Shown here: positions 47,688 to 64,000 of the stretch, piece by piece
How the letters are laid out: the number at the start of each line of letters is the position of its first letter
Numbering within the stretch: the first letter of the stretch is position 1
Origin: Novosphingobium indicum
GTDB lineage: Bacteria > Pseudomonadota > Alphaproteobacteria > Sphingomonadales > Sphingomonadaceae
Length of the DNA stretch: 64,000 bases
NCBI RefSeq assembly: GCF_014645195.1
Contig: NZ_BMLK01000019.1
Location: forward strand, 1 to 64,000
Direction: 5' to 3'
Notes under the pieces: model-generated
Told to the model about the DNA's origin: nothing
What the model saw: the letters and a program-made list of their open reading frames with translations, nothing else
The model's database searches: none
Position numbers and translations under genes: made by a program

Positions 47688-47761
47688 GGCCCGATGGCGG
47701 AGTGGTGACGCAGCGGACTGCAAATCCGTATACGCCGGTTCGATTCCGGCTCGGGCCTCCA
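47688..47761 (+). tRNA. tRNA-Cys (GCA)
   Basis: The acceptor stem GGCCCGA pairs with TCGGGCC, followed by T and an encoded CCA. The anticodon arm GCGGA-CTGCAAA-TCCGT carries anticodon GCA, and the T-arm is CCGG-TTCGATT-CCGG. All arms fold without mismatches apart from one G-T pair. Its 3' end is the likely attachment site for the adjacent integrase-encoding island. Confidence 0.97.
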
Positions 47762-47805: not shown

Positions 47806-47845
47806 ATGTCTAACCCGATGTCTAACTTTTTCCAAGGTTAGACAT
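47806..47845. repeat. ATGTCTAAC repeats at the island's left end
   Basis: ATGTCTAAC occurs as a direct repeat at 47806-47814 and 47818-47826 and inverted at 47837-47845. The set overlaps the 3' end of the integrase gene. On the minus strand the inverted pair makes a stem whose outer copy is followed by TTTTTCC, so it may terminate integrase transcription, be an arm-type integrase binding site, or both. Confidence 0.5.
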
Positions 47846-48994
47846 TTGCCACGCCGACAGAGCCGATTTTGCGGCCTCCGCCAGTGCATCTTCCTTTTTG
47901 GTTTCAGGCAGTTTCTCCCAATCCGAGACTCGGGCGATAGCGGCCGCTGCAAGACGTCTTTGCTCAGCGCCACGGACATAGATTGCCACCTCTTCATCGC
48001 GGCTGTGGCCAGATACGGACTTAAGGCCTTGCTGGCTCGTCTCAACGTCAGCCAGACGCCGCATCATCGCCTTTCGCAGGCCGTGCGCCGTGCACTGATG
48101 CAATCCGGCCTCGTCACATCGATCTCGAAACCAGTTTCCAAATCCTGCATTGGTGAAAGGACGCCCGAGTTCATTCAGAAGGAAGCAGTCTGCTCCTTCG
48201 GGCAATGGGGGCATGGCGACGATTGCTTCGAGTAGCTGAGGTGCGACGGGTAATCCCAGGACCTTCCCGCCCTTGGATTGGCTGAGTTCAATTCGCCCGG
48301 TCGCCACATGCCTGGGGCCAAGATGAATAGCATCGATCCGGCGCTGCCCAGTCCACAACATCAATTCCATCGCAAGCCGAGCGCGAGATCCTAGAGGATG
48401 GCATTCGCGATACTGTTCAATGTCGCCCTCGGTCCAACTGTAAAAGCCTTTGGAACGTTCGCCGGGAGCGATCTTGATGCGATCGGCCAGAGTTGCAGGG
48501 TTGCGATCTATCATCCGGGATTTGACGGCGAAATCGAAAAGGCGGACCAATTCCTTGCGGAGCTTGCGGGCGGCCTCAACGCCGCCTTCCATTCGCGAGC
48601 CGACCTTCCGCCGTTCCATTTTTCGCTGCAAGATGGCCTCAACATGCTCGAATTCCAGATCAGCAACTGTGCGATGGCCATGCTCCTTCCTGAATTTCTC
48701 CAGGATGCCGCGAATTTTTCGCTGTGTCGTTTCAGTCGGACCTAGCCGTGTCGGCAAAGAACAATAGCGTGCCACGAGGTCATCAATAGTCCCCGGAGCA
48801 CTGCGCTTAACTTTGACTGGTGCGGCGACTTCCCGACCATCGAGGCATGCCCGATATTCTTGTCGAAACTCCTCGGTTCCCAACTTGGATTTGAAATAGT
48901 GGCTTTCGAATCCGGTGCGCCGAAAACGCAAGCGCTCCTTGCCGTGGCGGTCGATAAACGCCGTCACGTATTTGGGCAGAAATCGGCGTCTCAT
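47822..48994 (-). CDS. Tyrosine-type site-specific recombinase/integrase
   Basis: The 390-residue protein has an N-terminal arm and core-binding region and a C-terminal catalytic domain. The catalytic residues are Arg in WTGQRRIDAIHL, His-Leu-Arg in AHGLRKAMMRR, His in SGHSRDEEVAIY, and nucleophile Tyr in the same segment. It should recombine island and tRNA-Cys sites. Its stop lies 61 bp from the tRNA, as in many tRNA-targeted islands. A small gene overlaps its start by four bases. Confidence 0.93.
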   Translation of the reverse strand: MRRRFLPKYVTAFIDRHGKERLRFRRTGFESHYFKSKLGTEEFRQEYRACLDGREVAAPVKVKRSAPGTIDDLVARYCSLPTRLGPTETTQRKIRGILEKFRKEHGHRTVADLEFEHVEAILQRKMERRKVGSRMEGGVEAARKLRKELVRLFDFAVKSRMIDRNPATLADRIKIAPGERSKGFYSWTEGDIEQYRECHPLGSRARLAMELMLWTGQRRIDAIHLGPRHVATGRIELSQSKGGKVLGLPVAPQLLEAIVAMPPLPEGADCFLLNELGRPFTNAGFGNWFRDRCDEAGLHQCTAHGLRKAMMRRLADVETSQQGLKSVSGHSRDEEVAIYVRGAEQRRLAAAAIARVSDWEKLPETKKEDALAEAAKSALSAWQMSNLGKS

Positions 48995-49176: not shown

Positions 49177-49912
49177 TGCCGAACCGGTCTCAGTTCGAAT
49201 GGCACGTTCCATCCGCTCAGACCTCTGCCACTCCCTCCCCTTCCAACTTCGCTCTTATGGCCGACATCGAACCAAGTGCTTCGCGTGGGCTTGATGCGCG
49301 ACAAGCGTAAGCGTTTGGCAAAGCGCGCCTGGCATTTCGCGAACGCCGCGCCTGCCAACCGGACCGTTTCTGATGAACTGGTTGCGACGAGCGTATCTCT
49401 AAAAGGAAATGGTCCCGCTGGTGCGGCAGTGCCCCCTACACACCGCAGCGCATGACCGTTGCGCCAACGATGACGTCGACGGCTGCAAGGGCCAGCAGTG
49501 TCTTGGAAGTGGATGACATCCAAGTCGCGGGTTCCTCACGGATTGCCCGGCGCGGTGTCATGAAGCATCTAAAATGTTATACGAATTTCGATGCCAATGG
49601 AATGAGCAAATCGAGCCCGCTGATCGTCACCGCTATAAGCACATGAGCCGTTGAAATAGACCGCCTCGATTGCGTAACAAAAATGTCATGATCCAATTTG
49701 CGGCCAGTAGTATATTCATGCCGTTGATCGCGAGTCCGAAATCGGGACTGGTTGCGGTCATATTGGTCAGGGCGCGCGCACGTTGGTTGTCCATGGCCAC
49801 ATCTACAACCTGCAGGCGATCAGCCTGGCTGAATGGAAACGCTTCGAAGTAGCGAGAATAGACTGGTCGCCAGCCAAACCGAATGCCTGCGCTTCAACAG
49901 GGGAAGTGCTGC
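49177..49912. other. Gene-free, partly AT-rich interval ahead of luxR
   Basis: About 735 bp without a supportable gene. The stretch 49560-49760 is clearly more AT-rich than its surroundings and could hold decayed mobile DNA. CCTGCAGG, a perfect 8-bp palindrome, lies at 49809-49816. The luxR promoter should lie in this interval. Confidence 0.5.
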
Positions 49913-50680
49913 ATGTTTATCGGTTCAGAGCTTATCGAGTTTTTTCTCTGCCTCGGCCAGGTGCGCTCGGATGCGGACTTCTTTGACCTCATGCTGGAAA
50001 CGACCCGCAGGCTGGGCTTCGAGCAATTTGCTTTCGTCAGCCATGTCGATCTTGTTGCTGCGGCCCACGAGGCGGTCGCAATATCAAACTACCCTGACGG
50101 CTGGGTCGAGCGGATCCTGACCGAGCGCTATTATCTCGACGATCCGGTACATGCCGCCAGCATCGGTCGCAACACGCCCTACGCCTGGCATGCCATCGGC
50201 GCGGAGATGATTCAGAGCAGACGTCAACGAACCATCCTCAAGGAAGGTGCCAGTTTCGGGCTCCAGGACGGCGTCACCGTGCCGGTCCATTCGCCGGGGG
50301 AATACCGTGGGACCTGCTCCTTCGCGACCTCGCAGCCTGTTTCCATGACCCCGCATATTCAGGGGGCTACGCATATCGTCGCAGGCTTTGGTTTCGAGAC
50401 TGCGCGCAAACTGGTTCGCATGCGGCTAGGCCTTGAGCGGACGATGCCTACCCTGCCCCGGCTCAGCCCGCGCGAGGTAGACTGCGTGGGCCTTGTCGCA
50501 TCCGGCATGGGAGATACCCAGATCGCGCACGCCCTTGGGCTCTCCGAAGCCACAGTCCATCAGCACATCACCGGCGCCATGCGCAAATGCGGCGTTTTCA
50601 AGCGGACTGCGCTGGTATTCCGGTCCTTGTTCGATGGACACATCTGCTTTCACAGTCTGCGCCGGACATCCTCTAAATAG
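49913..50680 (+). CDS. LuxR family AHL-responsive regulator
   Basis: The 255-residue protein has an N-terminal autoinducer-binding domain with the conserved pocket residues Trp64, Tyr73/74, Asp77, Pro78 and Trp92 (YPDGWVERILTERYYLDDPV...YAWH) and Gly116. The C-terminal LuxR helix-turn-helix runs LSPREVDCVGLVASGMGDTQ, then IAHALGLSEATVHQHI. These support true acyl-homoserine-lactone sensing. I start at 49913 with GGGGAAG ahead; the ten codons upstream are unconserved. It lies directly upstream of luxI. Confidence 0.93.
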   Translation: MFIGSELIEFFLCLGQVRSDADFFDLMLETTRRLGFEQFAFVSHVDLVAAAHEAVAISNYPDGWVERILTERYYLDDPVHAASIGRNTPYAWHAIGAEMIQSRRQRTILKEGASFGLQDGVTVPVHSPGEYRGTCSFATSQPVSMTPHIQGATHIVAGFGFETARKLVRMRLGLERTMPTLPRLSPREVDCVGLVASGMGDTQIAHALGLSEATVHQHITGAMRKCGVFKRTALVFRSLFDGHICFHSLRRTSSK

Positions 50681-50732: not shown

Positions 50733-50742
50733 GATGGCGAAC

Positions 50743-51357
50743 ATGGCCCACATCATTCAAGGCGGATGGGCGGCAGCGCAAGGCGCGCTGCTTGCCCAGA
50801 TGTACCAGGAACGCAAACACGTATTCATCGACCTCCTGCGCTGGGACCTGCCCGCGCTCGATGGGCGCTATGAAATCGACCAGTTCGACACGCCCTCGAC
50901 GATCTATCTCATCATCGCGGGCACCGACGGCAAGCATCTGGGCTCGCTGCGGCTCTTGCCGACCACCCAGCCCCATGTACTGGGAGATATCTTCCCGGGC
51001 CTGTGCGATCGGGGGGCTCCGAGCGCACCGGACGTGTGGGAGATTTCGCGGCTATGCCTGTCCCGCAGCATCCGGGCGGCCGAGCGGCTGTATGTTCGCA
51101 ATCAACTCGCGACCGCCCTGACCCGCTTTGCTCAGGACAATGGCATTCGCGCTTACTGCTGCGTGGCCGACATGCCCTGGTACAACCAGATCCTCTCGTT
51201 CGGATGGCGCTGCGAGCCTCTTGGCCTGCCGCAGGATCTTTCCTGCGGCATGATCGCCGCCCTGATGATCCACATCGACGACGAAACGCCCGGGCGACTG
51301 GAAGCGGCCGGGATCTGGTCTGAAAAACTCGCACCCCTTGTGGCGCTGAGCCAGTGA
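50743..51357 (+). CDS. Acyl-homoserine-lactone synthase (LuxI family)
   Basis: The 204-residue enzyme makes an AHL signal from S-adenosylmethionine and acyl-ACP. Starting at 50743, the invariant residues fall at Arg24, Phe28, Trp34, Asp46, Asp49, Arg70, Glu100 and Arg103, almost exactly the standard LuxI numbering. AGGAG lies nine bases ahead, whereas the in-frame ATG at 50734 abuts it; this decides the start. It follows luxR by about 60 bp and overlaps or touches the dioxygenase gene. Acyl chain length cannot be predicted. Confidence 0.93.
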   Translation: MAHIIQGGWAAAQGALLAQMYQERKHVFIDLLRWDLPALDGRYEIDQFDTPSTIYLIIAGTDGKHLGSLRLLPTTQPHVLGDIFPGLCDRGAPSAPDVWEISRLCLSRSIRAAERLYVRNQLATALTRFAQDNGIRAYCCVADMPWYNQILSFGWRCEPLGLPQDLSCGMIAALMIHIDDETPGRLEAAGIWSEKLAPLVALSQ

Positions 51358-51371
51358 TGATGGGCGAAACC

Positions 51372-52325
51372 ATGACCGCTATCTCACCGCACGCCCGGTG
51401 CATGGCCGATCTACATGAACAGGGTTACGCCATCATCACGGACCTGGTCTCGGCCGATCTGATCACGGCACTGGGCGCCGATCTCGCCCCGCAATTTGCT
51501 AACACCGGATTTTCCGAAGGCAGCTTTTCCGGTGCCGAGACGCGGCGCTTTGCCGGCCTGCTCAAGCGATCTTCGCATGCGGCGAGCCTGGTCGAGCACG
51601 AGTTAATCCTCAAGATTGGCGAAGACATGCTGGGACCATGGTGCGATCATATCTCGCTCAATCTCACCCAGGCGATCGAACTCGCGCCGGGCGCAGCCTC
51701 ACAGGTGCCCCATCGCGATCAGGACATGTGGCCCTGCAGCGGCCTGGTTGCGCAGGAGCGCGGTGTCGAGTTCCTGATTAATGTGATGTGGCCGCTGTCG
51801 GACTTTACGCAGGACAACGGTGCCACGCTCGTCTGGCCCGGGAGCCACCGGCAGCAGGATGAATTGCTCATCGCCCCCGAGGAAGCGGTCATTGCAGAAA
51901 TGGCGCAGGGCTCGGCACTCGTATTCCTGGGCTCGACCCTGCACGCAGCCGGCGCGAACCATACCGCCCTTCCCCGGCGCGGCATTATCATCAGCTACTG
52001 CCTTGGTTGGCTAAAACCCTACGAGCTTCCCTGGCTTGCCTACCCGCCAGAAGTCGCGCGGCAATTTCCGAAAAGCCTTGCCCGCCTTGCCGGATACCAG
52101 GTGCATCGTCCGAACCTGGGTACTTACGAGGGGCGCTGCCCGTCCCTCCTGCTCGACGGCACGCTCGACACGCCCGGCGCAGTGGACGCGCTGCTGCCCG
52201 AACAGGAAGAGCTTATCAGGGCATGGCGAAGTGGTATGATTGATCCCAAGCGCACCGTTGCCAGGTCCGGCCAGTCCACGCTTGCCGCAACCGTGTCCCC
52301 AGGTGGGCAGGCATCCCATGGATAG
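51372..52325 (+). CDS. Phytanoyl-CoA dioxygenase-like Fe(II)/2-oxoglutarate enzyme coupled to luxI
   Basis: The 317-residue PhyH-family protein has iron ligands in VPHRDQDMWP (His-x-Asp) and a distal His in GSTLHAAGANHTA, with Arg in RRGIIISY for 2-oxoglutarate. A GTG/ATG cluster overlaps the luxI stop (51354-51360), and an ATG at 51372 begins the conserved part, so luxI and this gene are translationally coupled. The linked luxR-luxI-phyH order is, as I recall, recurrent in Sphingomonadaceae. Whether it modifies the AHL or another substrate is unknown. Confidence 0.85.
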   Translation: MTAISPHARCMADLHEQGYAIITDLVSADLITALGADLAPQFANTGFSEGSFSGAETRRFAGLLKRSSHAASLVEHELILKIGEDMLGPWCDHISLNLTQAIELAPGAASQVPHRDQDMWPCSGLVAQERGVEFLINVMWPLSDFTQDNGATLVWPGSHRQQDELLIAPEEAVIAEMAQGSALVFLGSTLHAAGANHTALPRRGIIISYCLGWLKPYELPWLAYPPEVARQFPKSLARLAGYQVHRPNLGTYEGRCPSLLLDGTLDTPGAVDALLPEQEELIRAWRSGMIDPKRTVARSGQSTLAATVSPGGQASHG

Positions 52326-53379: not shown

Positions 53380-54303
53380 TCAGACCGGCGCAGCGGCCTT
53401 TTCCAATTCGGCAATCTTGTCGCTGCAAATCAGGTGGACCACCCGCCCAAGTTCCTCGACGCGCTCACCGAGCCAGGTCAGCTCTTCCTCGCTGATCCGG
53501 TAGTGCCTGGAGTAGCGGGCCTTGGTGTAGGCTTCCTTCAATTTCTGGAACATCGCCCGCTCGCGGCGTGAGCCTTCCGGCCAGATGCCGACCATCCGCC
53601 CGTCAAGGCGCTCCGCCTGGGTGCGAAGGAATGCGATGTTGTGATTGTAGGGCGTATAGTTCTGCACGACGAGCAGCATACAGGAATAGAGCCGCTCGGT
53701 TGCTTGGTGCAGCTCAAAGGCGGCCTTCTTGAAGCGTCCCCGCTCACAATTTGATTGGAAATCGTCGAAGAACTCCCCGGCGCTGGGATACCACTCCTCG
53801 AAATACTCCCTCGCCATAGCTAACGCCTCCTTGGGCGTCTTCGGCTTGGGTTGATGAAGTTCGCGCTCGTCGGATTCGTAAAGGGCGATGCCTTCCTTGG
53901 CCATTTCCAGGAAGAAAATGCGGCCGTGGGCCAGTCCGTCGTTCACTTCCTGGAGCGAGTGGACAATGAAGTTCACCGGCGTGCGCAGCGCCTTCTCGAT
54001 CATGTACTCGCGGATCAGCCGCTCCTCGCACTTGGCCCAGTACTTGGCCCGATCGGCCAGCTCCTTCTGGCTGACGATAATGAGGATGTCGTAGTCGCTC
54101 TTGTACTGGTTGGCCGAGAGCGGCGCATCGACCCAATCGCCACGGCTGTATGAGCCGAACAGGACGATCTTCAGGATTTGCGCACGGGCACGCGGACCGG
54201 TCGCATGCTCGGTCGCCTCGCGAAATTCCTCGAAGATGACGCCGACGACGCGCTCCAGCTCGCGCTGCCTGGCCGGTGGAAGATGATCAATTCCCGTACG
54301 CAT
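53380..54303 (-). CDS. Nucleotidyltransferase-HEPN fusion protein
   Basis: The 307-residue protein joins an N-terminal minimal nucleotidyltransferase domain (IVLFGSYSRGDW...SDYDILIIV at about 48-82) to a C-terminal HEPN domain (AFELHQATERLYSCMLLV and KARYSRHYRIS). In most MNT-HEPN systems these are two proteins, toxin and antitoxin; here they are one chain. Catalytic acidic residues DYD of the transferase are present. A role in defence or toxin control is inferred. It is a single gene beside the ParE module. Confidence 0.8.
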   Translation of the reverse strand: MRTGIDHLPPARQRELERVVGVIFEEFREATEHATGPRARAQILKIVLFGSYSRGDWVDAPLSANQYKSDYDILIIVSQKELADRAKYWAKCEERLIREYMIEKALRTPVNFIVHSLQEVNDGLAHGRIFFLEMAKEGIALYESDERELHQPKPKTPKEALAMAREYFEEWYPSAGEFFDDFQSNCERGRFKKAAFELHQATERLYSCMLLVVQNYTPYNHNIAFLRTQAERLDGRMVGIWPEGSRRERAMFQKLKEAYTKARYSRHYRISEEELTWLGERVEELGRVVHLICSDKIAELEKAAAPV

Positions 54304-54631
54304 GGACCGTCACCCTAAACGCAACACCGCAAGATTGCCCAGCGCCAATTGCATGCGACGGCACACAATAATTACGCCTTCTTGCAACAATTTAATCACC
54401 CCTCCCTCCCCTCATTCACGCCAGGGCTTGCCGGAGTCCATGGTTTGTTCCATATTCCGGTGATGAGACGGAAATGCTGGCGACCGTCCTCAGGATCATC
54501 CTGCCAGGCATCAACACGCCCGTCCGCAATGGCCGGTCGGCTGGAGCACTTCGGCTCACGGCACACCTTAGCTTCGAATGTCCCGCTTGCCGGGAACGCT
54601 TCGTATTTGGCCGGCGCAGGCTGTGTTGCCC
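54304..54631. other. Interval ahead of the sigma-factor gene
   Basis: About 328 bp. A minus-strand frame at 54396-54653 has ordinary amino-acid composition but no family or ribosome binding site, so I do not call it. The promoter of the sigma-FecR-TonB-isopeptidase operon should lie here. A short inverted repeat is visible at the sigma start (CGCTTGCCGGGAACG), unremarkable in GC-rich DNA. Confidence 0.4.
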
Positions 54632-55240
54632 ATGCGCTCTCCGCACCTGTCACCGCGTTCGTCCGCTGCCCTGGACGAAGCGTCCGGTTACGTCGATACC
54701 GGCGGTTCCCATGCTGGCACCATCAACCCGGTGGAGCGGGAACGGCAACTGACCGACCTGCTTTGCACGGAACGCCCAAGGCTCGTCCGGTTCTTCCGCA
54801 GGCAGGCAAGGTTCGCTAGCCCCGATGAGGCGGACGATCTCGCGCAGGAAGCCATCACCCGGTTCCTGCGCGCAGCCCCTTCGACGCACATGGCAACGCC
54901 GCAGGCCTATCTGCGCCGGATCGCCAGCAATCTGCTCATCGACCGGGCCCAGCACGGATCGACCCGCCTTGCGCAGATTTCGGTCCCCCTGGTCGAAGGA
55001 CTGGACCGGCCTGTCGAGTACGATCAGCACCAGCAACTCGAAGCGCGCGAGGAGCTTGCCCATTACGAGCAGGTCCTGCGCCAGCTCAAACCACGAGTGC
55101 TGAAGGTCTTTCTGCTCAGCCGCGTCGAAGGCTATACCTACAAGGAAATCGCCGCACGCCTCGGCCTCACTGTCTTTACGGTAAAGCGCGACATGCTGCA
55201 GGCCATTGCCCATCTCGACCAGAGCCGGAGGCATCGGTGA
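54632..55240 (+). CDS. ECF sigma factor (FecI type)
   Basis: The protein of about 202 residues has region 2 (RFFRRQARFASPDEADDLAQ and EAITRFLRAA) and region 4 (LKPRVLKVFLLSRVEGYTYK and EIAARLGLTVFTVKRDML). It is the first gene of an operon with FecR, a TonB receptor and the lasso isopeptidase, the classical FecIRA cell-surface signalling layout. The start is uncertain: the ATG at 54632 has no ribosome binding site, and GTG at 54731 would remove an unconserved leader. Confidence 0.88.
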   Translation: MRSPHLSPRSSAALDEASGYVDTGGSHAGTINPVERERQLTDLLCTERPRLVRFFRRQARFASPDEADDLAQEAITRFLRAAPSTHMATPQAYLRRIASNLLIDRAQHGSTRLAQISVPLVEGLDRPVEYDQHQQLEAREELAHYEQVLRQLKPRVLKVFLLSRVEGYTYKEIAARLGLTVFTVKRDMLQAIAHLDQSRRHR

Positions 55241-56268
55241 GTCTTGGCAAAGCAGAAGGACGTTCAAGGCCGATGCACCGGATCGAACGCCAGGCCTATA
55301 AATGGGCGATGAAGATGGCCGGTGATCCCGAACGGCACCGGGCGGGTCTTGAATGCTGGATCGTGCGCAGCCCGGACCACCTCATCGTGTACAACCGCGT
55401 TGCCCGGGAAATGCGGCTCGCCACATGGAGTGCCGCTCAGCTCGACTTGGACCCGGCAGACACGAGAGCGACAAGACGAAGGCCTTTCTGCAATTCAGGA
55501 TTCGTGTGGGCAGTCGCGGTCCTCGCGTCTGTCCTGGCAGCCAGTTCGGCCGCGTTCCTGGTGCTACGCAGCCAACAAACGCCCGGCAAAGACATCGTTT
55601 CCGGCGCCCCCACAGTCGCCCAATCCTGGTCTTCCCATGCCGATGACATTCGCCGCACGCGGCTCCCCGATGGATCGGTTGTGACGCTCGACGGGGACAG
55701 CGCCATTGCCATCCGCTTTTCGGCGGACCGGCGCATGATCGAGTTATCCCACGGCCGCGTCCGCTTCGAAGTCGCACGTGATACCTCGCGGCCTTTCGTG
55801 GTACTCACACCCGGCGGAAGCGTCACAGCGACAGGAACTGTGTTCGACGTTGAAGTCAGCGACAAGGTTCGCGTTCACCTGATGCGCGGCGCAGTCGAAG
55901 TCGCCATGGCGCACAATTCATCCGCAAACGAGGACACCCCTGTCAGGCTTATTCCCGGCCAGAAGTTGGAATTTGCATCGCGCCGGCAGGCTGTCATGCC
56001 GGTTCCGCAGGCCGCTCCCGCCGCAGACGGCCGATGGCTGTCCGGGACGATGAGCTTCGAAGACATGCCGCTCGGCGATATCATCGCGCAGACCAACGCC
56101 TATTCCAGCAGCAGGATTTCAGTGTCGGAGCCGGGACTTCTGCAGAAGGAGATCTTCGTCGATCTCGACATTCGCGATGCCGATGCTGTCGCGCGCAAGC
56201 TCGCCATTCTGCTCGACCTGACTGTCGATAGAAGCCAACCGGGCAAGCTCATCCTGCGGCCGCGATAG
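55237..56268 (+). CDS. FecR-type transmembrane anti-sigma factor
   Basis: The 343-residue protein has a cytoplasmic DUF4880-like start (RIERQAYKWAMKMAGDPERH), a single transmembrane helix at about 88-110, and a periplasmic FecR domain (RLPDGSVVTLDGDSAIAIRF...GRVRFEVA...VTATGTVFDVE). A C-terminal DUF4974-like domain (FEDMPLGDIIAQTNAYSSSRI) follows. Its GTG start overlaps the sigma stop by four bases. It should hold the sigma factor and release it when the TonB receptor senses its ligand. Confidence 0.92.
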   Translation: MSLGKAEGRSRPMHRIERQAYKWAMKMAGDPERHRAGLECWIVRSPDHLIVYNRVAREMRLATWSAAQLDLDPADTRATRRRPFCNSGFVWAVAVLASVLAASSAAFLVLRSQQTPGKDIVSGAPTVAQSWSSHADDIRRTRLPDGSVVTLDGDSAIAIRFSADRRMIELSHGRVRFEVARDTSRPFVVLTPGGSVTATGTVFDVEVSDKVRVHLMRGAVEVAMAHNSSANEDTPVRLIPGQKLEFASRRQAVMPVPQAAPAADGRWLSGTMSFEDMPLGDIIAQTNAYSSSRISVSEPGLLQKEIFVDLDIRDADAVARKLAILLDLTVDRSQPGKLILRPR

Positions 56269-56358: not shown

Positions 56359-58944
56359 ATGGACAACAAGAGCCGGCTAATACTCGCGGCCATTCTATCC
56401 AGCACGGCGATCTGCTCGGTCGCACAGGCACAGGAGGACACCCGGCGCGATTTCGATGTCCCGGCGCAAGAACTCAAGTTCTCGCTGCATGCCGTCACGC
56501 GCGCTGCCGGCCTCGAACTGGCCGCAACGTCCAAGGCCCTGAGCGGCAAGCGCGCACCAGCCCTCAAGGGACACTACAGCGCAGCAGAGGCCATCGCGCT
56601 CATCCTCAAGGGGACAGGCCTTACCGCGCAAGTTTCCGGACGCACCGTATTCATTCGGGAGAACTCCCGTTCGCCGCAGTCGGCAGATGACTCTGCCGCC
56701 ATAGGACCGGAAATCACCGTCACCGGATCGCGCATACGCGGCGCGGTGCCAACCTCGCCCGTCGTTGCCAGCAGCCGCGAAGAGATCGAACGGCGCGGTA
56801 TCACCGATCTTGGAGCCTATGCCCGCAGCGTGTCGCAGAACTATGCAGGCGGACAGAACCCCGGCGTCATCGGCAGTGTCCAGGAGGGGTCAGAAAACTT
56901 CAACTCCTCCTCGACCCTGAACCTGCGAGGCCTTGGCGCCGACGCGACGCTCACGCTCATCAACGGTCACCGTGCGGCCTACGATTCCGTTGTTCAGGGC
57001 GTGGATATTTCGGCGATCCCGCTCGTAGCGATCAACCGGGTGGAAATCGTCGCCGACGGATCCTCTGCGCTCTATGGTTCGGATGCCGTCGGCGGGGTCG
57101 CCAATGTCATCCTTCGCCAGGACTACGAGGGCGGCAAGGTTTCCGCGCGCCTGGGCGCCGCGACCGAAGGCGGCGATGTCCAGCAGCAGTACAATGTCGT
57201 GACAGGCAGCCGCTGGGATGGCGGCGGCTTCATGGTGGCAGGCGACTTCAGCCGTTCCACGGACGTGGCGGCCGGGCAGCGCTCGATCACCTCTACGCTC
57301 GACGGCTCGACCACGCTGTATCCCTCGCTGAATCAAAAGAGCGCCGTCCTTGCCGGGCATCAGCAGATCAACGACACGTTCAGTGTCGAGCTCGACGGCC
57401 AGTTCAGCAAACGGCATTCGGAAACGGCGCTGGCGTTCCTCGCCACAGGCGACTTCACGGTGAACGGCACGGCGGCGCAGCGGGACGTCAAATCCTGGTC
57501 CATCGCCCCGCGTATCAAGGCGGTCTTGCCGGGCGGATGGCTCGCAACGCTGGGCTATGTCCATGGCAGCAGCGATTCCGATGCTGAAACCGTGACCAAT
57601 CTGAGTGGCAAGGAATCCTCCCGCAACCGCATCTTCTATGACAACATCCTGGATACGCTGGAAGCGAGCGCGGAAGGCGGCGTTCTGCAACTGCCGGGCG
57701 GAGAGGCCAGGCTCGCATTGGGCGGCGGGTGGCGGTCTGTCAGCCTAGATGCCAACATCCGCTCGACGCGCGGCGGCATTACCAGCACGCTTGTCGATTA
57801 CACGAGCGGGCAGGACGTGTGGTTCGGCTATGGCGAACTCTCGCTTCCGCTGGTTGCTCCTGAGAACGGCGTGCCGCTGGTTCATCGCTTTCGGCTGACG
57901 GGTGCCGCGCGCTACGAGGATTACGAGCGTTTTGGCGGCACGACGACACCCAAGTTCGGCGTTGTCTATGAACCGGTCAGCGGTCTTGCGATCAAGGGAA
58001 CCTGGGGCAAATCGTTCAAGGCCCCGACACTGGCGCAGATGAACAAGGTCCCCGAAGGCAATCTCCTCAATGCAAGCTACTTCGTACCGGCAGCGCCGGG
58101 CGGTCAGCCTGTCCTCCTGCTCGGCGGCGTCAGCCCGGACCTGAAGCCGGAAAAGGCGACAACCTGGACTGCCACGGTGACCGCAACGCCCACATTCGCC
58201 GAGGGACTTCGCCTGGAGGTCAGCTACTTTCATACCCGTTACAAGGACCGGGTCGTTCAACCGGCGACCTCGTCCTCTCAGGTCTTCGGGAACGACATCT
58301 ACGACCGGCTGATCGTCTACAATCCGACGGCAGACCAGGTGAACGCGGTCATTGCCGAGCTGCCGCTCGGGCTCGTCAATCAGACCGGACAGCCCTTCGA
58401 TCCCGCCAATGTCGGCGCGATCGTCGACAACAGCCTGCAGAATGCGGCAAGCCAGACATTGGAGGGCGTCGATGCCTCGGCGGACTATCAGCTGACTTTC
58501 GCACGCGGGGACCAGTTGGGCTTCAATGCTGCGGTCAGCTACCTCAAGAGCAACCAGAAGCTGAGCGACGGTCAACCGACGATCCAGCGCGCGGGCACGA
58601 TCTTCGATCCCCCGCACTGGCGCGCGAGGAGCAGTGCGACCTGGCAGCGCGGCGATTTCACGCTGAGCCCGAGTATCACCTATATCGGCGGAACCCTCGA
58701 TGACCGCTACCAGCCTTTCGTTCGTGTCGGCTCCTATACCAGCGTCGATACCGTCGCGCAGGTACGGACCTCGCAAACGGCAGGATTTCTCTCCGGCATC
58801 GAGATCACGCTTTCGCTGCTCAACATTTTCAACGAGATGCCGGCCACGATCCGCAATTCATCCGCGGCCGCACCGACCTACGATGCCACCAATTACCCCG
58901 TCATAGGCCGAAGTGTCAGCCTCGGCCTTTCCAAGGCCTGGTAA
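56359..58944 (+). CDS. TonB-dependent transducer with STN domain, lasso locus receptor
   Basis: The 861-residue outer-membrane receptor has a signal peptide (to about residue 24), an STN signalling domain at about 30-102 (FDVPAQELKFSLHAVTRAAG and GTGLTAQVSGRTVFIRE), a TonB box-like EITVTGSRIRG, a plug and a 22-strand barrel ending SVSLGLSKAW. The STN domain lets it signal through FecR to the ECF sigma factor. In related astexin-type loci a TonB receptor is present beside the isopeptidase and is thought to import the lasso peptide. That role here is inferred. Confidence 0.92.
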   Translation: MDNKSRLILAAILSSTAICSVAQAQEDTRRDFDVPAQELKFSLHAVTRAAGLELAATSKALSGKRAPALKGHYSAAEAIALILKGTGLTAQVSGRTVFIRENSRSPQSADDSAAIGPEITVTGSRIRGAVPTSPVVASSREEIERRGITDLGAYARSVSQNYAGGQNPGVIGSVQEGSENFNSSSTLNLRGLGADATLTLINGHRAAYDSVVQGVDISAIPLVAINRVEIVADGSSALYGSDAVGGVANVILRQDYEGGKVSARLGAATEGGDVQQQYNVVTGSRWDGGGFMVAGDFSRSTDVAAGQRSITSTLDGSTTLYPSLNQKSAVLAGHQQINDTFSVELDGQFSKRHSETALAFLATGDFTVNGTAAQRDVKSWSIAPRIKAVLPGGWLATLGYVHGSSDSDAETVTNLSGKESSRNRIFYDNILDTLEASAEGGVLQLPGGEARLALGGGWRSVSLDANIRSTRGGITSTLVDYTSGQDVWFGYGELSLPLVAPENGVPLVHRFRLTGAARYEDYERFGGTTTPKFGVVYEPVSGLAIKGTWGKSFKAPTLAQMNKVPEGNLLNASYFVPAAPGGQPVLLLGGVSPDLKPEKATTWTATVTATPTFAEGLRLEVSYFHTRYKDRVVQPATSSSQVFGNDIYDRLIVYNPTADQVNAVIAELPLGLVNQTGQPFDPANVGAIVDNSLQNAASQTLEGVDASADYQLTFARGDQLGFNAAVSYLKSNQKLSDGQPTIQRAGTIFDPPHWRARSSATWQRGDFTLSPSITYIGGTLDDRYQPFVRVGSYTSVDTVAQVRTSQTAGFLSGIEITLSLLNIFNEMPATIRNSSAAAPTYDATNYPVIGRSVSLGLSKAW

Positions 58945-58949
58945 GCACA

Positions 58950-61112
58950 ATGCGGGTCATCCTTGCCCAAGCGGCGACAGCGGCACTGATGGTAGCTGGC
59001 CTTCTCTATGCGGAACGGGCTTCGGCAGCCCCTGTCGGTTGCGGTTCGCTCGTTCCCGGCAAGCTGGACGAGGATGGACTGCATCGGGCACTGACCCCTC
59101 TCGACCTCGTACAACTGCGCGATATGGGCTCCATCCCCGATATGCGGCAGCCGATAGTTTCGGTGTCGCCTGACGGAAAATGGCTGGCATTCGAGATCCA
59201 CCGGGCTGACCCGCGCAGCAACACCTATTGCCAAGGCATGGCCGTGATGGAGGCACGCCCCGGCGCGCAGGCCGTGCTCGTCGATCAGCATCCGGACATC
59301 ATTCGCTGGCGCTTCCCTGAGCTACCAGGAAAGGCAGACTTCCCCTCGGGCTTCGCAAAAGTGATCACGCCAAGGTGGTTTCCCGACAATAAGGCCATCG
59401 CGTTCCTGAAACGCACGGGAACCACCATACAAATATGGCGGGCACACATCGACGGGAGCCGCAGTGCTCCCGTCACCCATTCCGATACCGATATACTCGA
59501 TTTCCGGATCGCAAGGGACGGCCGCACGATCGTCTATTCGGCCAGTCCCGCTCTACACGCGGCGTGGAGCCAGATCGAGGAGGAGGGCCTTTCCGGCTTT
59601 CATTTCGATAACCGGTTCGCACCCAACGCCTCCACCCGGCCGTTTCCCGCGCCACCGATCCCGGTCCAGACCTTCACGCTCGATTTGACCAGCGGGAAGG
59701 TTCGAGCGGCATCCCCGGCGGAAGCAGCCTTGTTGCAGGATGACAAACCACGCGGCCCGCCGGGCGCGATTGCCGTTGCGCTCTCGCCATCCGGAAGACG
59801 GGCCTGGACCAAGCCGACGCTATCGAAACGATTTCCACCGCATCCGCAACTGATGGCGGAAGACTCTACCGGATCGCCCATGAGTTGCGAGGCGCAAGCC
59901 TGCCGATCGGTCACGACCTTGCTGGGCTGGTCTGCCGACGGCCAGCGGATCCGCTTCACGCACCTCGAAGGCTGGGCCAACAGCAAGACCGCCATCTACG
60001 AATGGAAGCCCGGTGCGCAAGCCGTCAAACGCCTTTACGTCACGACCGGCCTGCTGGTCGACTGCGCCCCCTTGAAGGATGACCTGGTCTGCGTCGAGGA
60101 AGGCTCCAGTGCGCCACGGCATATCAGCCTACTTCGGTTTGCTCCCGGGCAGGACGAAGTGCTGTTCGATCCGAACCCGGAATTCGGCAAGTTGCGGCTT
60201 GGAAAGGTCGAGCGGCTCACATGGAAGACCGCCTATGGCACCGAGAGCTTCGGGGACCTTGTCTATCCGGCCGGTTACCAACCCGACCAGCGCTATCCGC
60301 TTATTGTCGTCCAGTATATCTCGCGCGGCTTCCTGCGGGGCGGAACGGGCGACGAGTATCCCATCCAGGCCTTTGCAGGTCGCGGCTATGCGGTGCTGAG
60401 CATCCAGCGTCCGCGCTCGCCGGTCGCTGTCCCTGACGCCACGAGCTATACCGACCTCGACAAGGCGGATCTTGTGGATTTCAAGGACAGGAAAAATGTC
60501 CTGTCGTCGATCGAGACAGCCGTCCAGTCGCTGATCGATCGCGGCATTGCCGATCCCGCGCGCGTCGGCATCACCGGTCTTAGCGACGGGGCTTCAACGG
60601 TGCAGTTCGCGGGTCTTCACAGCGAGTATTTCGCGGTCGCCGCCATGAGCAGCTGCTGCTGGGAACGTTCGCAATTGGCCATGCTCGGCCCGGCCGTCGC
60701 GCGACAGTACGTTCGGACAGGCTGGCCGCGCCAGTCGGACAACGCGCCGGGATTCTGGAACGAAATCTCATGGGCTCAGCAGCCCCGGCGCGTTGCGTTT
60801 CCAGTACTCATGCAGCTTTCGGACAATGAGCTTCTGCCCGCACTGGAGACCTATACGGCGCTGGTCGAAGCCGATGCGCCGGTGGATCTCTTCGTCTACC
60901 CTCACGAAGACCACGTCAAATGGCAACCGGCCCATCGCCTCGCGGTCTACCGGCGCAACCTCGACTGGTTCGATTTCTGGTTCAAAGGTTCGGCGCCCGA
61001 TGCGCCGCCCGCCGAGATTTCCCGTTGGCAGGCGTTACGAGATCGGATGGCCGAGCACGCCCGGAAAGAGGATGCCGATGGAGGCCCGAATACGTCTCGT
61101 CCCGCCTCCTGA
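58950..61112 (+). CDS. Lasso peptide isopeptidase (prolyl-oligopeptidase-like)
   Basis: The 720-residue protein has an N-terminal beta-propeller (TolB-like DKTxxFL repeats in the first 400 residues) and a C-terminal alpha/beta-hydrolase with Ser545 (TGLSDGAST), Asp625 (LSDNELLP) and His655 (HEDHVKW). This matches AtxE-type enzymes, which hydrolyse the isopeptide bond and linearise lasso peptides. A signal-peptide-like N-terminus (residues 1-26, ending ASAAP) implies export or a need for experimental start checking. It follows the TonB gene by 5 bp and converges on the cyclase gene with a 36-bp gap. Confidence 0.9.
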   Translation: MRVILAQAATAALMVAGLLYAERASAAPVGCGSLVPGKLDEDGLHRALTPLDLVQLRDMGSIPDMRQPIVSVSPDGKWLAFEIHRADPRSNTYCQGMAVMEARPGAQAVLVDQHPDIIRWRFPELPGKADFPSGFAKVITPRWFPDNKAIAFLKRTGTTIQIWRAHIDGSRSAPVTHSDTDILDFRIARDGRTIVYSASPALHAAWSQIEEEGLSGFHFDNRFAPNASTRPFPAPPIPVQTFTLDLTSGKVRAASPAEAALLQDDKPRGPPGAIAVALSPSGRRAWTKPTLSKRFPPHPQLMAEDSTGSPMSCEAQACRSVTTLLGWSADGQRIRFTHLEGWANSKTAIYEWKPGAQAVKRLYVTTGLLVDCAPLKDDLVCVEEGSSAPRHISLLRFAPGQDEVLFDPNPEFGKLRLGKVERLTWKTAYGTESFGDLVYPAGYQPDQRYPLIVVQYISRGFLRGGTGDEYPIQAFAGRGYAVLSIQRPRSPVAVPDATSYTDLDKADLVDFKDRKNVLSSIETAVQSLIDRGIADPARVGITGLSDGASTVQFAGLHSEYFAVAAMSSCCWERSQLAMLGPAVARQYVRTGWPRQSDNAPGFWNEISWAQQPRRVAFPVLMQLSDNELLPALETYTALVEADAPVDLFVYPHEDHVKWQPAHRLAVYRRNLDWFDFWFKGSAPDAPPAEISRWQALRDRMAEHARKEDADGGPNTSRPAS

Positions 61113-61148: not shown

Positions 61149-62891
61149 TCACGACCAATGTCCGATCCAGGCTTCGGTATCGAGCAGAGCCATGATCCGC
61201 ATGTACTCCGATGCCGTATGCAGCCTGCTCTCACCGAGGCAGGCCCCCAGAGCGTCGAGATCGAGCAATCCTTGTGAGGCGAGTCGGCCGCCGAGCAGCC
61301 TTTCGCGGATCTCGCCCAATCGGCTTGTGAGCAATTCCACGATGAAGCTGTCAGGTCCCGCCTTTGAACGCCGCTCGAGAATTTGGGGTGGAAGCCGTGA
61401 TACGTAAGCATCGCGGGCGACAGCACGATTGATACCTCCGGCGCACATCGCCCAGGAAGGAATGGCAAGGCAGGTTTCGACGATCGGCTGTGAGACGAGC
61501 GGATTGACCAGCGTGAATGGCAGAGCGCGATCGCAGCCATCGAGATGCTGCTGCATGCGCAGCAACATGGCGACATGGCCTGCCTTGCCCGGGAAGGCCT
61601 CGCGTGGCGCTTCAAGCCAGGGGTGTTCGGCGGGTTGGCGGCTGTCGTGGGCGGCGATGTCGGAATGCAGGAACAAGGGATCGGTTCGCCAGACATAGCC
61701 CTTCCCACTGCGTTTCAGGACTCGCCGGGCCTCGCGCATCGCCTGCCATGCTCCAGCACCAGTGACAGCGCACACGTCGCGCAGTGTGCGGACGAGTCCG
61801 GGGCCGATGCCTTCGGCCAGATAGCGATCCGCTATCGGGCGCGCCGAGGCGCTGTTGTAGAATACGTTGTCGCCGCCATTCCCGGTAAAATAGGCATCGG
61901 CGCCCTGCTCTGCCGCTGTGGCGGTGACCACGGCCCGAAAGGCCAGGTCGTGTGTCCTTCCGCAAGGACGGGGGAGATGGGCTACCACTGAACGATCGAG
62001 GTCGATGGCATCGAGAGAGTAGCCGCACTCATGGAGGCGGGCATGGCAATGCGCGGCGATGATCCGGGCATAGGAACGCTCGTCGCCGCTTGGATCTCTC
62101 GTAGCAAGCGTCAGGCACGAGAATGAAAGGCCCCGGTCTGCCAGCGTAGTGGCAACGATCGACGAATCGAGGCCACCGGAAACGCTGAGAAGAATGTTCG
62201 CGTAGCGCGAACCCCATGCCGATATACACTGCTGCAATGCGCGGCCCAATCGCTCGGCACATTCCTCGGGTTCCATGACATCCAGCGTGGCGGCATAGTC
62301 CCATGGCGACCAACATTGGCTGACACCCTCGCCGTCCTCGGCAAGAGAGGCGCATGTACCGGGAAGGAGCTCGCACAGTCCTGCGATGGCGGTCCGGGGC
62401 GATGGCAAGTCTCGCACGAAGAGATGGCGCTGCAATTCATCCCAGTCGATCCGGGGCGCCAGAAGCCCAGCCTTCAGGAGAAGGCCTGGATCGGATGCGA
62501 AGATGTGCAGACCGCCTTGCCGCAATTGGAAGCATGGCAGTGCGCCCTGGGGGGCTCGCAGCACGCACGCGCCGCCGGGCATCTCGAACGCCGCCAGGTA
62601 ACCACCCCAGTACCGTTCGATCAGGTGTGCGCCGTTCGATTTTCGAATGGCCTCAGCGCAACGCTGATCCAGATCGCGGATCGCTTCAGGAGGACCATGG
62701 CGATGAAAGATCGTGCCGATCACCGCGCCGCCACCGGGAATGGGCAGAACATCGCTTTCATCGCTCACTACGAGCGAAAACGGGCCCGGCACCGCAACCA
62801 TGGTGAGGCCGCAGCGCTGCGCGGCCCGACTAGCCGCACCTTCGCGCTCATCTGCGTCCGGCGAATGGAAGAGAATGTAGCGCGGCGCCAT
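61149..62891 (-). CDS. Lasso peptide cyclase (asparagine-synthetase-like, C protein)
   Basis: The 580-residue protein is related to asparagine synthetase B. The N-terminal half is a glutaminase-like domain without the catalytic N-terminal cysteine (sequence starts MAPRY), and the C-terminal half has the ATP PP-loop SVSGGLDSSIVATTL at residues 236-250. It adenylates Asp8 of the precursor and joins it to the new N-terminal glycine, threading the tail through the ring. It overlaps the B gene stop as TAATG, so translation is coupled. This is the last gene of the operon. Confidence 0.93.
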   Translation of the reverse strand: MAPRYILFHSPDADEREGAASRAAQRCGLTMVAVPGPFSLVVSDESDVLPIPGGGAVIGTIFHRHGPPEAIRDLDQRCAEAIRKSNGAHLIERYWGGYLAAFEMPGGACVLRAPQGALPCFQLRQGGLHIFASDPGLLLKAGLLAPRIDWDELQRHLFVRDLPSPRTAIAGLCELLPGTCASLAEDGEGVSQCWSPWDYAATLDVMEPEECAERLGRALQQCISAWGSRYANILLSVSGGLDSSIVATTLADRGLSFSCLTLATRDPSGDERSYARIIAAHCHARLHECGYSLDAIDLDRSVVAHLPRPCGRTHDLAFRAVVTATAAEQGADAYFTGNGGDNVFYNSASARPIADRYLAEGIGPGLVRTLRDVCAVTGAGAWQAMREARRVLKRSGKGYVWRTDPLFLHSDIAAHDSRQPAEHPWLEAPREAFPGKAGHVAMLLRMQQHLDGCDRALPFTLVNPLVSQPIVETCLAIPSWAMCAGGINRAVARDAYVSRLPPQILERRSKAGPDSFIVELLTSRLGEIRERLLGGRLASQGLLDLDALGACLGESRLHTASEYMRIMALLDTEAWIGHWS

Positions 62892-63562
62892 TACACGACC
62901 ATGATCGGCGTGAAGGGGCGGACGTTGTCGACGGTGTCATTGAGAACGGTCTCACCTTGCTGCACCCAGCAATGCGCGGAAAACGGGCTGGCCTGCACGC
63001 CGAATACAAGGCTGGGAGCAAAACCCCGGCGCAGGCAAATCCATACAAAGGCGAGCGAGCGAACGAGGCACCGGTCCGAGCGCCGAAAGATCAGGCCGAG
63101 CGCCTCGAAAGCCGCATTTATCCGGGCATATTCATCGTCATGCCGCCAGGCAACGTCAGCCCCTGCGGTAGGCTTGCGACTTTCGATATCCCGTATGAGC
63201 GCGGGCAATCCACGAAGCCGTACCCGCCATGCGAGAACGCATTGGGCAACGGCGACCTGCATGAGCATGGATGGGCCAGGGCGTTGACCTACGCTCGCAA
63301 CGACATCGCGGGACGCAGGCATGATGCGAATGGATAAGTCAGTATCGGGGGCCTGCGTCTGCTCGATGAGCATGCCCCGGGCGAGGAGCGGTTGCAGCAC
63401 CCCGTCATCATCCGGACTGCAGGGTTCACCGCCTGCCGCGCGGCGAAAGGCCTCATCCATACCGGGCGGCAGCGCGAAATACCGGTCGGCCTCGATGTCG
63501 AGAACGATCGTGCGCCCACTTGCCGTGCAGTGATGGAGATTGTCGCGCAAAGAGAAGAACAT
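62891..63562 (-). CDS. Lasso peptide leader peptidase (B protein with fused RRE)
   Basis: The 223-residue protein has an N-terminal PqqD-like recognition domain (about residues 1-75, VLDIEADRYFALPPGMDEAFRRA) and a C-terminal transglutaminase-fold protease with Cys165 (SDRCLVRSLA), His197 (SAHCWVQ) and Asp209 (LNDTVDN). The domain fusion is the proteobacterial type; in other phyla B1 and B2 are split. It binds the leader and cuts after residue 23 of the precursor. The ATG at 63562 is 57 bp past the precursor stop. Confidence 0.93.
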   Translation of the reverse strand: MFFSLRDNLHHCTASGRTIVLDIEADRYFALPPGMDEAFRRAAGGEPCSPDDDGVLQPLLARGMLIEQTQAPDTDLSIRIMPASRDVVASVGQRPGPSMLMQVAVAQCVLAWRVRLRGLPALIRDIESRKPTAGADVAWRHDDEYARINAAFEALGLIFRRSDRCLVRSLAFVWICLRRGFAPSLVFGVQASPFSAHCWVQQGETVLNDTVDNVRPFTPIMVV

Positions 63563-63619: not shown

Positions 63620-63760
63620 TCAGTCGTCGGAGATGGCACCAAAGATCTGGCGCGGCTGACCTTCGAGGTCGGCTTCGCCCTGGACGGCGCCCTTGGTCTC
63701 GGTGCTGACAGCGCCGAGATCGATCAGCTCGTCATCGCGATGTTCGTCAATCACGGTCAT
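63620..63760 (-). CDS. Lasso peptide precursor (46 aa)
   Basis: This small gene was found by reading the DNA: 46 codons, preceded by AAGGAGGT at about six bases' spacing, one of the best ribosome binding sites in the window. The leader is 23 residues and ends ...STETK, with Thr at position -2, as in nearly all lasso leaders. The core starts GAVQGEAD, giving an eight-residue ring Gly1-Asp8, and continues LEGQPRQIFGAISDD (15-residue loop and tail). Arg14, Gln15 and Phe17 are possible steric plugs. The acidic end SDD recalls sphingomonad lasso peptides such as sphingonodin. No other precursor is seen in the next 240 bp. Confidence 0.9.
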   Translation of the reverse strand: MTVIDEHRDDELIDLGAVSTETKGAVQGEADLEGQPRQIFGAISDD

Positions 63761-64000
63761 GATGACCTCCTTCTTGTCGTCGCAGGGATTTGCGACAGCG
63801 AGAAGGATATCGCGACAGTACGCGAAACGTCGATTTTATAAGTTTCCAATTTGAGTTCTTATAAGCCAAAATACTCATTCATTGTCCTGTGAATTGGAAA
63901 GACCACTCCGTGAAGGGCCGGGTTATCGACAATCACGGCGTGAATTTCAGACCTGATCCTCGGAAGGAATGAGCCTCGAGACTTGCCGCAATCGCCGGCG
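63761..64000 (-). promoter_or_regulatory. Upstream control region of the lasso operon
   Basis: About 240 bp to the window edge. On the minus strand a TATAAAAT sequence (near 63833-63840) could be a -10 box. A perfect 9-bp inverted repeat, TTTCCAATT (63843-63851) and AATTGGAAA (63892-63900), has a 40-bp spacer in AT-rich DNA, possibly an operator pair. No other gene is supportable here; a start-like GGAAGGAATG on the plus strand at 63963-63971 lacks spacing for a ribosome binding site. Confidence 0.45.

Follow-up and report, generated by a model that had tools for sequence, protein, structure and literature searches.

Gene A of the Novosphingobium indicum stretch analysed here is very probably the precursor gene for a 23-residue lasso peptide that belongs to the benenodin/subterisin family. 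The peptide would be made by an isopeptidase-type cluster, in which the genes GntR-A-B-C face the genes FecI-FecR-TonB receptor-isopeptidase. The whole stretch, 64,000 nucleotides in length, is referred to below as the window. Our main concern is where the cluster is found. We place most weight on the reading that the lasso module is carried and exchanged by conjugative elements, whether it is simply cargo or serves in signalling linked to transfer. The setting may be more telling than the peptide: in many genomes the module has a near-constant place by transfer genes, it often lies near acyl-homoserine-lactone (AHL) synthase genes, and it seems to be exchanged between similar backbones.

Gene A encodes a benenodin-family precursor

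The 46-codon reading frame, proposed earlier by a sequence-only reading of this DNA, is present on the minus strand at positions 63620–63760 and starts with ATG. A Shine-Dalgarno sequence (AGGAGG, 63766–63771, minus strand) is positioned 5 bases ahead of this start, which bears out the claim of an optimal ribosome binding site. The product is MTVIDEHRDDELIDLGAVSTETK-GAVQGEADLEGQPRQIFGAISDD. Briefly, leader codons occupy 63692–63760, core codons 63623–63691 and the stop codon 63620–63622. This gives a leader and a core of 23 residues each, the core length that had been claimed. The leader ends T-K, with T22 as Thr(-2) and G24 as core position 1. The core begins with Gly1, carries Asp8 and ends in an SDD tail; these claimed features can all be read in the sequence. 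Gene A had also been said to lie directly before B and C in the same direction. Consistent with this, B starts 57 bases downstream of A on the same strand, and its last base is shared with C.

According to the consulted part of PMC11006600, the acid that closes the ring is found at position 7, 8 or 9. Among these positions, the only acidic residue of the core is at position 8. We considered ring closure elsewhere and rejected it: positions 7 and 9 are not acidic, and Glu6 and Glu10 are outside the 7–9 rule. The core GAVQGEADLEGQPRQIFGAISDD is a predicted class II lasso peptide, a label that follows only from the absence of cysteine.

Precursor A scored 46.1 bits against the benenodin model NF033522 (NCBIfam; cut-off 33) and 44 bits against the subterisin model PF24178 (Pfam; cut-off 27). 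In the whole 4.96 Mb genome, gene A was the sole benenodin-model match at E ≤ 10. At the same threshold 5 of 14 control genomes had a match, none of them above the cut-off, and at E ≤ 0.01 there was a match in none of the 14. The exact core strings of precursor A were not found in the papers searched.

The sequence-only reading had held the gene to be too short for the usual gene callers. This was mostly wrong. Among 15 annotated plasmid clusters, a gene was called at the position of A in 14. Ten of these calls are "benenodin family lasso peptide" and four are a short "hypothetical protein", two of the four being assigned to A by position alone; in the remaining cluster the gene was missed. 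On plasmid pBSY17_1 of Sphingobium sp. RAC03 we noted an unlisted precursor (L119, 9119–9265; core GPGFDNSDGIGGQQLVPGLSDD) between GntR and B. The annotation has an antisense hypothetical protein there instead.

The precursor is conserved wherever a close cyclase is found

Absence of the precursor from close relatives with intact B and C genes had been named as evidence against the assignment. The opposite was found. We searched 195 Novosphingobium genomes and detected the precursor at E ≤ 1e-6 in four. The same four genomes alone have a cyclase at least 88% identical to that of the window, the next best being 50% identical. Hence, all four genomes with a close cyclase keep the precursor, and in all four the core is unchanged. 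Gene A of N. mangrovi HK4-1 (G006) is identical to that of the window. G096 corresponds to strain PP1Y, the cyclase having equal coordinates on its contig C1 and on PP1Y plasmid Lpl. The copies in G031 and G096 differ from that of the window at five codons; three differences are synonymous, all in the core, and two are non-synonymous, both in the leader.

Across the genus we read 32 precursors in 30 loci, the window's included. Thr(-2), Gly1 and an acidic residue at core position 8 are present in all 32, in agreement with the claim that these are defining features. A tblastn search detected gene B in 28 of the 30 loci; in one of the other two, the contig stops where B would be expected. At E ≤ 0.01, 52 of 149 genus genomes have a benenodin-family match, and 45 exceed the cut-off. 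There are 27 distinct cores including the window's, and the nearest to it by alignment score shares 10 residues. A scan of named genomes for related loci, made with C, returned only two, in N. naphthalenivorans and N. mangrovi. With so many cores and so many genomes matched, the peptide is one more member of a well-populated kind. It adds one new sequence to a known family and, as a peptide, is of low novelty.

The surrounding genes form an isopeptidase-type cluster

Gene B (62891–63562, minus strand) encodes a protein of 223 amino acids with an RRE-like N-terminal domain and a C-terminal transglutaminase-like protease (NF033537, PF13471). It scored 81.6 bits against NF033537 (cut-off 33), and the protease residues Cys165 and His197 are invariant in 22 sequences. 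The predicted model of B has a mean pLDDT of 88.4. When the N-terminal domain of this model was compared with PDB folds, ranks 1, 2, 4 and 5 were lasso B1/RRE proteins (TbiB1, 6jx3; probabilities 0.99–1.00, E 0.028–0.15). The matches to 5v1v, 5v1u and 6jx3 had E values of 0.028–0.13; no match in the PDB reached E ≤ 0.001. An RRE-style search had been suggested as a check. The fold comparison agrees with such a domain, and the Pfam scan of B gave no RRE match. We call the domain RRE-like, as it is assigned by fold only and the match is weak.

Gene C (61149–62891, minus strand) encodes a 580-residue asparagine-synthetase-like lactam (isopeptide) cyclase with an SGGLDS motif at residue 238. It scored 87.7 bits against PF00733 (cut-off 21) and stays below the NCBIfam cyclase cut-offs. 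A PDB sequence search with C found no relative at E ≤ 0.001, and searches with B and with the precursor returned nothing useful.

The facing genes are all on the plus strand. Gene E (58950–61112) encodes an Atxe2-family lasso peptide isopeptidase of 720 residues (NF033523, 792.6 bits; cut-off 400), which aligns with AtxE2 (5txc) over ~650 residues (E 8.7e-137). AtxE2 residues Ser527, Glu610 and His638, which we take to be the catalytic triad, are matched in E by Ser545, Glu627 and His655. Next is a TonB-dependent receptor of 861 residues (56359–58944) with an N-terminal STN signalling domain (PF07660), a plug and a barrel. Judging from its family, we take the STN domain as the mark of a transducer-type receptor. 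A FecR-like anti-sigma factor (55237–56268; PF04773) and a FecI-like ECF sigma factor (54578–55240; Sigma70_r2 and r4_2; start codon uncertain) complete this side. Just upstream of A is a GntR-family regulator, mostly outside the window. Its 3' end occupies 63947–64000 on the minus strand (PF00392, 50.2 bits), and on the contig the gene spans 63947–64570.

These features of isopeptidase-type clusters are present: an AtxE2-like isopeptidase, a TonB receptor, a sigma/anti-sigma pair and GntR before A. An ABC exporter (D) gene was not found among 15 Pfam-scanned proteins, 12 in the window and 3 beyond it. The combination of A-B-C, isopeptidase, receptor, FecR/FecI and GntR is a canonical isopeptidase-type cluster. 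The sequence-only reading had named B and C but none of the isopeptidase, receptor, sigma/anti-sigma, luxI/luxR or conjugation genes nearby. The claim that A is a lasso precursor is upheld by family models over their cut-offs, by conservation in relatives and by catalytic residues of B, C and the isopeptidase that are conserved or aligned. Beside FecI is a nucleotidyltransferase/HEPN gene (53380–54303, minus strand; Pfam). Genes with this annotation are near five related plasmid clusters, three with a VapC-type gene adjoining. The window's copy is a possible toxin-antitoxin companion of the module.

By analogy with the family, the steps of biosynthesis and cleavage can be proposed with high confidence. 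The RRE-like domain of B would bind the leader and the protease would cut after Lys23. C would activate Asp8 and join it to the amine of Gly1 with loss of water. The predicted cyclised core has a calculated monoisotopic mass of 2354.114. The tail would be trapped in the 8-residue ring. The peptide would leave the cell, and its recognition by the transducer-type receptor would send a signal through FecR/FecI. After uptake, the peptide would be opened by E (+18 Da).

A TTATAA array precedes gene A

A 37-base block upstream of A (63830–63866, minus strand) is a candidate promoter or operator. It is identical in the window, G006, G031 and G096 and contains two TTATAA sequences (63836–63841 and 63859–63864). 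These start 81 and 104 bases ahead of the gene A ATG and are the only copies of TTATAA within the 64-kb window. Counting was extended to loci L003–L032 and L050–L076, with 2 of the 57 loci left out. Among 48 distinct upstream regions, 22 have at least one TTATAA and 12 have at least two; a first-order Markov model expects 2.3 and 0.13, respectively. Adjacent copies follow an 11-bp phasing in 15 of 16 spacings, the exception being the 23 bp of the window. The idea that the array is an operator of the adjacent GntR was not supported in its simple form. Using ~1.5 kb of upstream stretch per locus, TTATAA occurs in 11 of 35 loci with a GntR relative versus 14 of 20 without one. The idea keeps some room beyond that simple form because GntR can occupy the far end of the cluster, as seen in an annotated plasmid cluster. 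No sigma-70-like promoter was found within 61–64 kb.

The cluster adjoins an F-type transfer operon

Past the cluster, the contig continues with an F-type transfer operon in the order DsbC, TraE, TraK, TraB, TraV, TraC, TraU, TraH, TraG. The mating-pair genes TraE, TraK, TraB/TrbI, TraV, TraC, TraU, TraH and TraG were identified by Pfam. On the other side of the cluster the order is FecI, nucleotidyltransferase/HEPN, PhyH, LuxI, LuxR, integrase, tRNA-Cys. Specifically, these are a phytanoyl-CoA dioxygenase family protein (PhyH; 51354–52325, plus strand; PF05721), a LuxI-type AHL synthase (50734–51357, plus strand; PF00765, 74 bits), a LuxR-type regulator (49883–50680, plus strand; PF03472, PF00196) and a tyrosine integrase (47822–48994, minus strand; Pfam). 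The integrase is a possible left end of the element. Some 60 bases from it, tRNA-Cys (GCA; 47688–47761, plus strand) is a possible attachment site.

From its gene content, the host of the module looks like a conjugative element, with the module divergent from the tra operon. A second exact copy of the last 15 bases of tRNA-Cys was not found on the contig, which ends at 90,318. Hence, it may be either an integrated plasmid or an ICE. Because related elements are homologous only from ~49.8 kb onwards, the integrase could be part of a different element. Colinearity with G006 extends from ~50 kb to 89.9 kb. With G031 and G096 it covers 59–89 kb and 50–89 kb, respectively, with gaps, in the parts available.

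Identity to G006 is ~100% from 63 kb to ~90 kb and 85–93% per kb from 50 to 63 kb. The break is near the B/C junction, at ~62.9–63 kb in the window. This suggests recent transfer with recombination inside the lasso cluster, although the break may also be an assembly effect. G006, G031 and G096 each have another element whose TraC is of the window's class (L092, L097 and L098), and no lasso gene was matched there.

Some precursors recur at fixed positions relative to transfer genes

We measured the position of 163 precursor matches in 116 genomes, divided into a first set (89 matches, 57 genomes) and a hold-out (74 matches, 59 genomes). The genomes were chosen for carrying NF033522 matches, and the first set consists of those with loci among the matches listed. 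The matches include weak ones (E up to 0.01 within the genus and 1e-4 within the family), and tandem copies are counted apart. They are not all independent because near-copies are included, such as the window, G006, G031 and G096, and several trbI loci at 578 bp.

Twenty-six of the 163 matches are 6.5–8.1 kb from one class of TraC (PF11130), with TraC always upstream of A and divergent. In the first set this applies to 20 of 89 matches (17 genomes, six genera; 6.5–8.0 kb), where uniform placement expects 0.6, a crude null since mobile cargo clusters in islands. The hold-out has the same arrangement for 6 of 74 matches (7.4–8.1 kb), all in Novosphingobium. The TraC class concerned is the lower-scoring one. 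A precursor is present within 10 kb of this class at 19 of 29 loci in the first set and 6 of 11 in the hold-out. For higher-scoring TraC the counts are 0 of 52 and 0 of 35. The boundary between classes, 100–265 bits, was set after the first set had been seen and applied unchanged to the hold-out; each set also has a PF11130 fragment (65.5 and 64.6 bits, respectively) that belongs to neither class. Where matched, the gene order is C, B, A, GntR, HTH, 172-aa protein, DsbC, TraE, TraK, TraB, TraV, TraC, the 172-aa protein being unmatched in L078.

A second arrangement involves trb genes. Here, A is 547–594 bp downstream of trbI on the same strand. This holds for at least 11 of 89 and at least 10 of 74 matches, lower bounds because 15 of 89 and 74 of 74 precursor matches were checked against hand-picked trbI genes (13 and 33) from listings of limited length. 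Three further matches are 3.4–8.4 kb from trbI. At one such locus, Pfam identified TrbL, VirB8 (TrbF), CagX (TrbG) and the TrbE and TrbB ATPase families upstream, and TrbI was identified by Pfam in a copy of that locus. The P-type ATPase family PF03135 was tried as a marker and abandoned: 1 of 89 precursor matches was within 10 kb of it, and the single trbE tested next to a lasso cluster scored weakly (E 6e-7), short of the limit used. The marker taken in its place was trbI. As far as checked, 116 of the 163 matches are in neither arrangement.

At 10 of the 29 lower-scoring TraC loci in the first set, a precursor was not found within 10 kb. Nine of these gave a TraC match in the fetched regions, some of which end at contig ends, whereas none of the queries matched in L093. 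Both B and GntR are retained in L096. At the corresponding end, the two loci inspected have an integrase (L092) and a serine-recombinase-like ORF recognised by reading alone (L099).

Quorum-sensing genes are often found nearby

LuxI (PF00765) is within 20 kb of 56 of the 89 precursor matches in the first set, compared with a rough uniform expectation of 1.2. Twenty-nine of the 56 are within 2.6 kb, and LuxI is upstream on the same strand in all 29. Conversely, 52 of 85 LuxI are within 20 kb of a precursor; 85 of 86 matches were typed and one fragment was dropped.

The sole independent check of this nearness is provided by the annotated plasmids, where an AHL synthase is in the stretch at 5 of 15 clusters (PP1Y Lpl, S. 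paeninsulae, ES2-1, RAC04 and S. indica). The 15 clusters are drawn from 39 plasmid records matched by cyclase. Transfer genes of the tra or trb type are listed for five (pCHQ1, PP1Y Lpl, RAC03, S. panacis and N. resinovorum). PP1Y Lpl thus has both. Neither was listed for six: DBS4, S. fribergensis, S. macrogoltabida, P6W and both Caulobacterales records. In P6W, genes for a MobF relaxase and a type IV DNA-binding protein are found at a distance of at least ~10 kb, and the RAC04 stretch ends upstream of A at the start of the record.

In the window PhyH adjoins luxI, and its substrate could be the AHL or the lasso peptide. The order luxR-luxI-phyH then GntR is already in print for a Novosphingobium. 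The words "lasso" and "asparagine synth" are absent from the main texts, figures aside, of PMC7432010, PMC6163740 and PMC11024222, and likewise from both main texts consulted on luxR-luxI-phyH with GntR.

Lasso modules differ on similar backbones

Twenty pairs of loci have a TraC identity of 93% or more and cyclases that can be compared. In 14 pairs the cyclases are only 38–62% identical; the other six pairs all fall within the group formed by the window and its three close relatives. For example, L091 and the window have TraC proteins that are 98% identical, cyclases that are 38% identical and GntR regulators that are 45% identical. Mean identities across 9 to 18 loci are 37% for B, 40% for C, 40% for GntR, 53% for HTH, 64% for DsbC, 62% for TraV, 73% for TraE, 77% for TraB and 84% for TraC. 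This contrast suggests that the lasso module moves as a unit and is swapped on a more slowly changing tra backbone. The distances between cyclases correlate with those between isopeptidases (Mantel r 0.96), GntR regulators (0.83) and TraC proteins (0.52). These values are a poor measure of linkage, since TraB versus TraC, from one operon, gives only 0.31.

What the module may be for

The module could be ordinary cargo of a variable region between one end of the element and the tra operon. It would then be a competitive or nutritional trait with no tie to transfer. We regard this as plausible, if somewhat short of probable. The ten TraC loci lacking a nearby precursor, with recombinase-type genes in L092 and L099, fit this reading, as do the 116 matches in neither arrangement. 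Cyclase distances also track isopeptidase more than TraC, although the TraB and TraC comparison means that this proves little. However, cargo does not readily account for the near-constant distance, side and orientation of 26 matches in six genera. It also sits poorly with the absence of precursors within 10 kb of all 87 higher-scoring TraC, and with a second transfer system, trb, that has its own fixed lasso spot.

The alternative form of carriage by conjugative elements ties the peptide to transfer. In Sphingomonadaceae, isopeptidase-type lasso peptides might be the peptide arm of a signalling module of such elements. LuxI/LuxR would measure density. The lasso peptide, sensed outside by its own receptor with FecR/FecI and destroyed by its own isopeptidase, would report whether neighbours already have this module, and so decide the timing of transfer or which cells are shut out. 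We offer this tentatively and consider it unlikely. If it were true, the fast swapping of whole modules between similar tra backbones would mean that specificity groups are diversifying, for which the peptide pheromones of Gram-positive conjugative plasmids are a comparison.

A narrow-spectrum, microcin-like antimicrobial, with receptor and isopeptidase giving uptake and self-protection, seems quite unlikely. Fast module turnover on similar backbones does resemble toxin/immunity diversification, and the consulted part of PMC9266682 mentions narrow-spectrum activity for astexin-1. However, it describes the other known isopeptidase-type lasso peptides as not antimicrobial, and such clusters as having no ABC exporter gene, with one named exception.

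Improbable, too, is an extra modification such as hydroxylation by PhyH, in which case the mass would not simply be that of the core minus water. PhyH adjoins luxI in the window and in 5 of 15 annotated plasmid clusters. However, PhyH in those five is always with luxI, and the part of PMC5012321 consulted describes phyH as belonging to novR-novI-phyH; the target of PhyH may therefore be the AHL or something else. For the remaining 10 clusters, PhyH is absent from the genes listed in the stretch. Finally, that gene A is a chance reading frame with no peptide made can be dismissed, given scores of 46.1 bits (NF033522) and 44 bits (PF24178), the single match in the genome, the conserved core and the codon pattern.

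To our knowledge, the role of isopeptidase-type lasso peptides is open. The recurrent place beside DNA-transfer genes and near quorum-sensing genes is a testable clue to their purpose. With the position by transfer genes, the nearness of luxI and the exchange of modules, the question becomes experimentally approachable.

Comparison with known systems

Among the best-ranked papers, mostly non-subscription, we found no report that joins lasso peptides to conjugation, type IV secretion, mobile elements, pCHQ1 or luxI. In the parts consulted, PMC8600333 deals with natural-product clusters on cyanobacterial conjugative plasmids and names lasso peptides only in general, and PMC6771000 describes a Sphingopyxis genome that has transfer genes separate from its three lasso regions.

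The precursor exceeds the cut-offs of both the benenodin and subterisin models, and its core sequence is its own. Similarly, the isopeptidase is homologous over ~650 residues to AtxE2 (5txc/5txe) of the astexin-2/-3 clusters, whereas the core is different. Isopeptidases are reported to cut only the lasso peptide of their own cluster, and isopeptidase-type clusters have the same architecture and gene set as the window's (PMC9266682, consulted part).

Plasmid pCHQ1 of Sphingobium indicum UT26S (NC_014007.1) has the same order of tra, DsbC, HTH, GntR, A, B, C, receptor, FecR and sigma. Unlike the window, it is a plasmid typed as conjugative, with no luxI in the stretch examined. Its gene table, which is incomplete, lists no isopeptidase between C and the receptor.

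The closest published precursor that we found is SpgA of sphingocin, from Sphingomonas sp. BPH (PMC11006600). In the section consulted, the sphingocin cluster resembles the window's in having A-B-C, an adjoining isopeptidase and TonB receptor, and no D gene. Transfer genes are not described in that section, unlike the tra setting here. The sphingocin core, GPGFINNDGVGGKLPFAGLSDD, has 22 residues. SpgA shares Thr(-2), Gly1, Asp8 and an SDD tail with the window's precursor; otherwise, its core is unlike our 23-residue core at most positions. In contrast, the leaders, HRDDELIDLGSVTEETKG in SpgA and HRDDELIDLGAVSTETKG in the window, are near-identical from HRDDELIDLG on.
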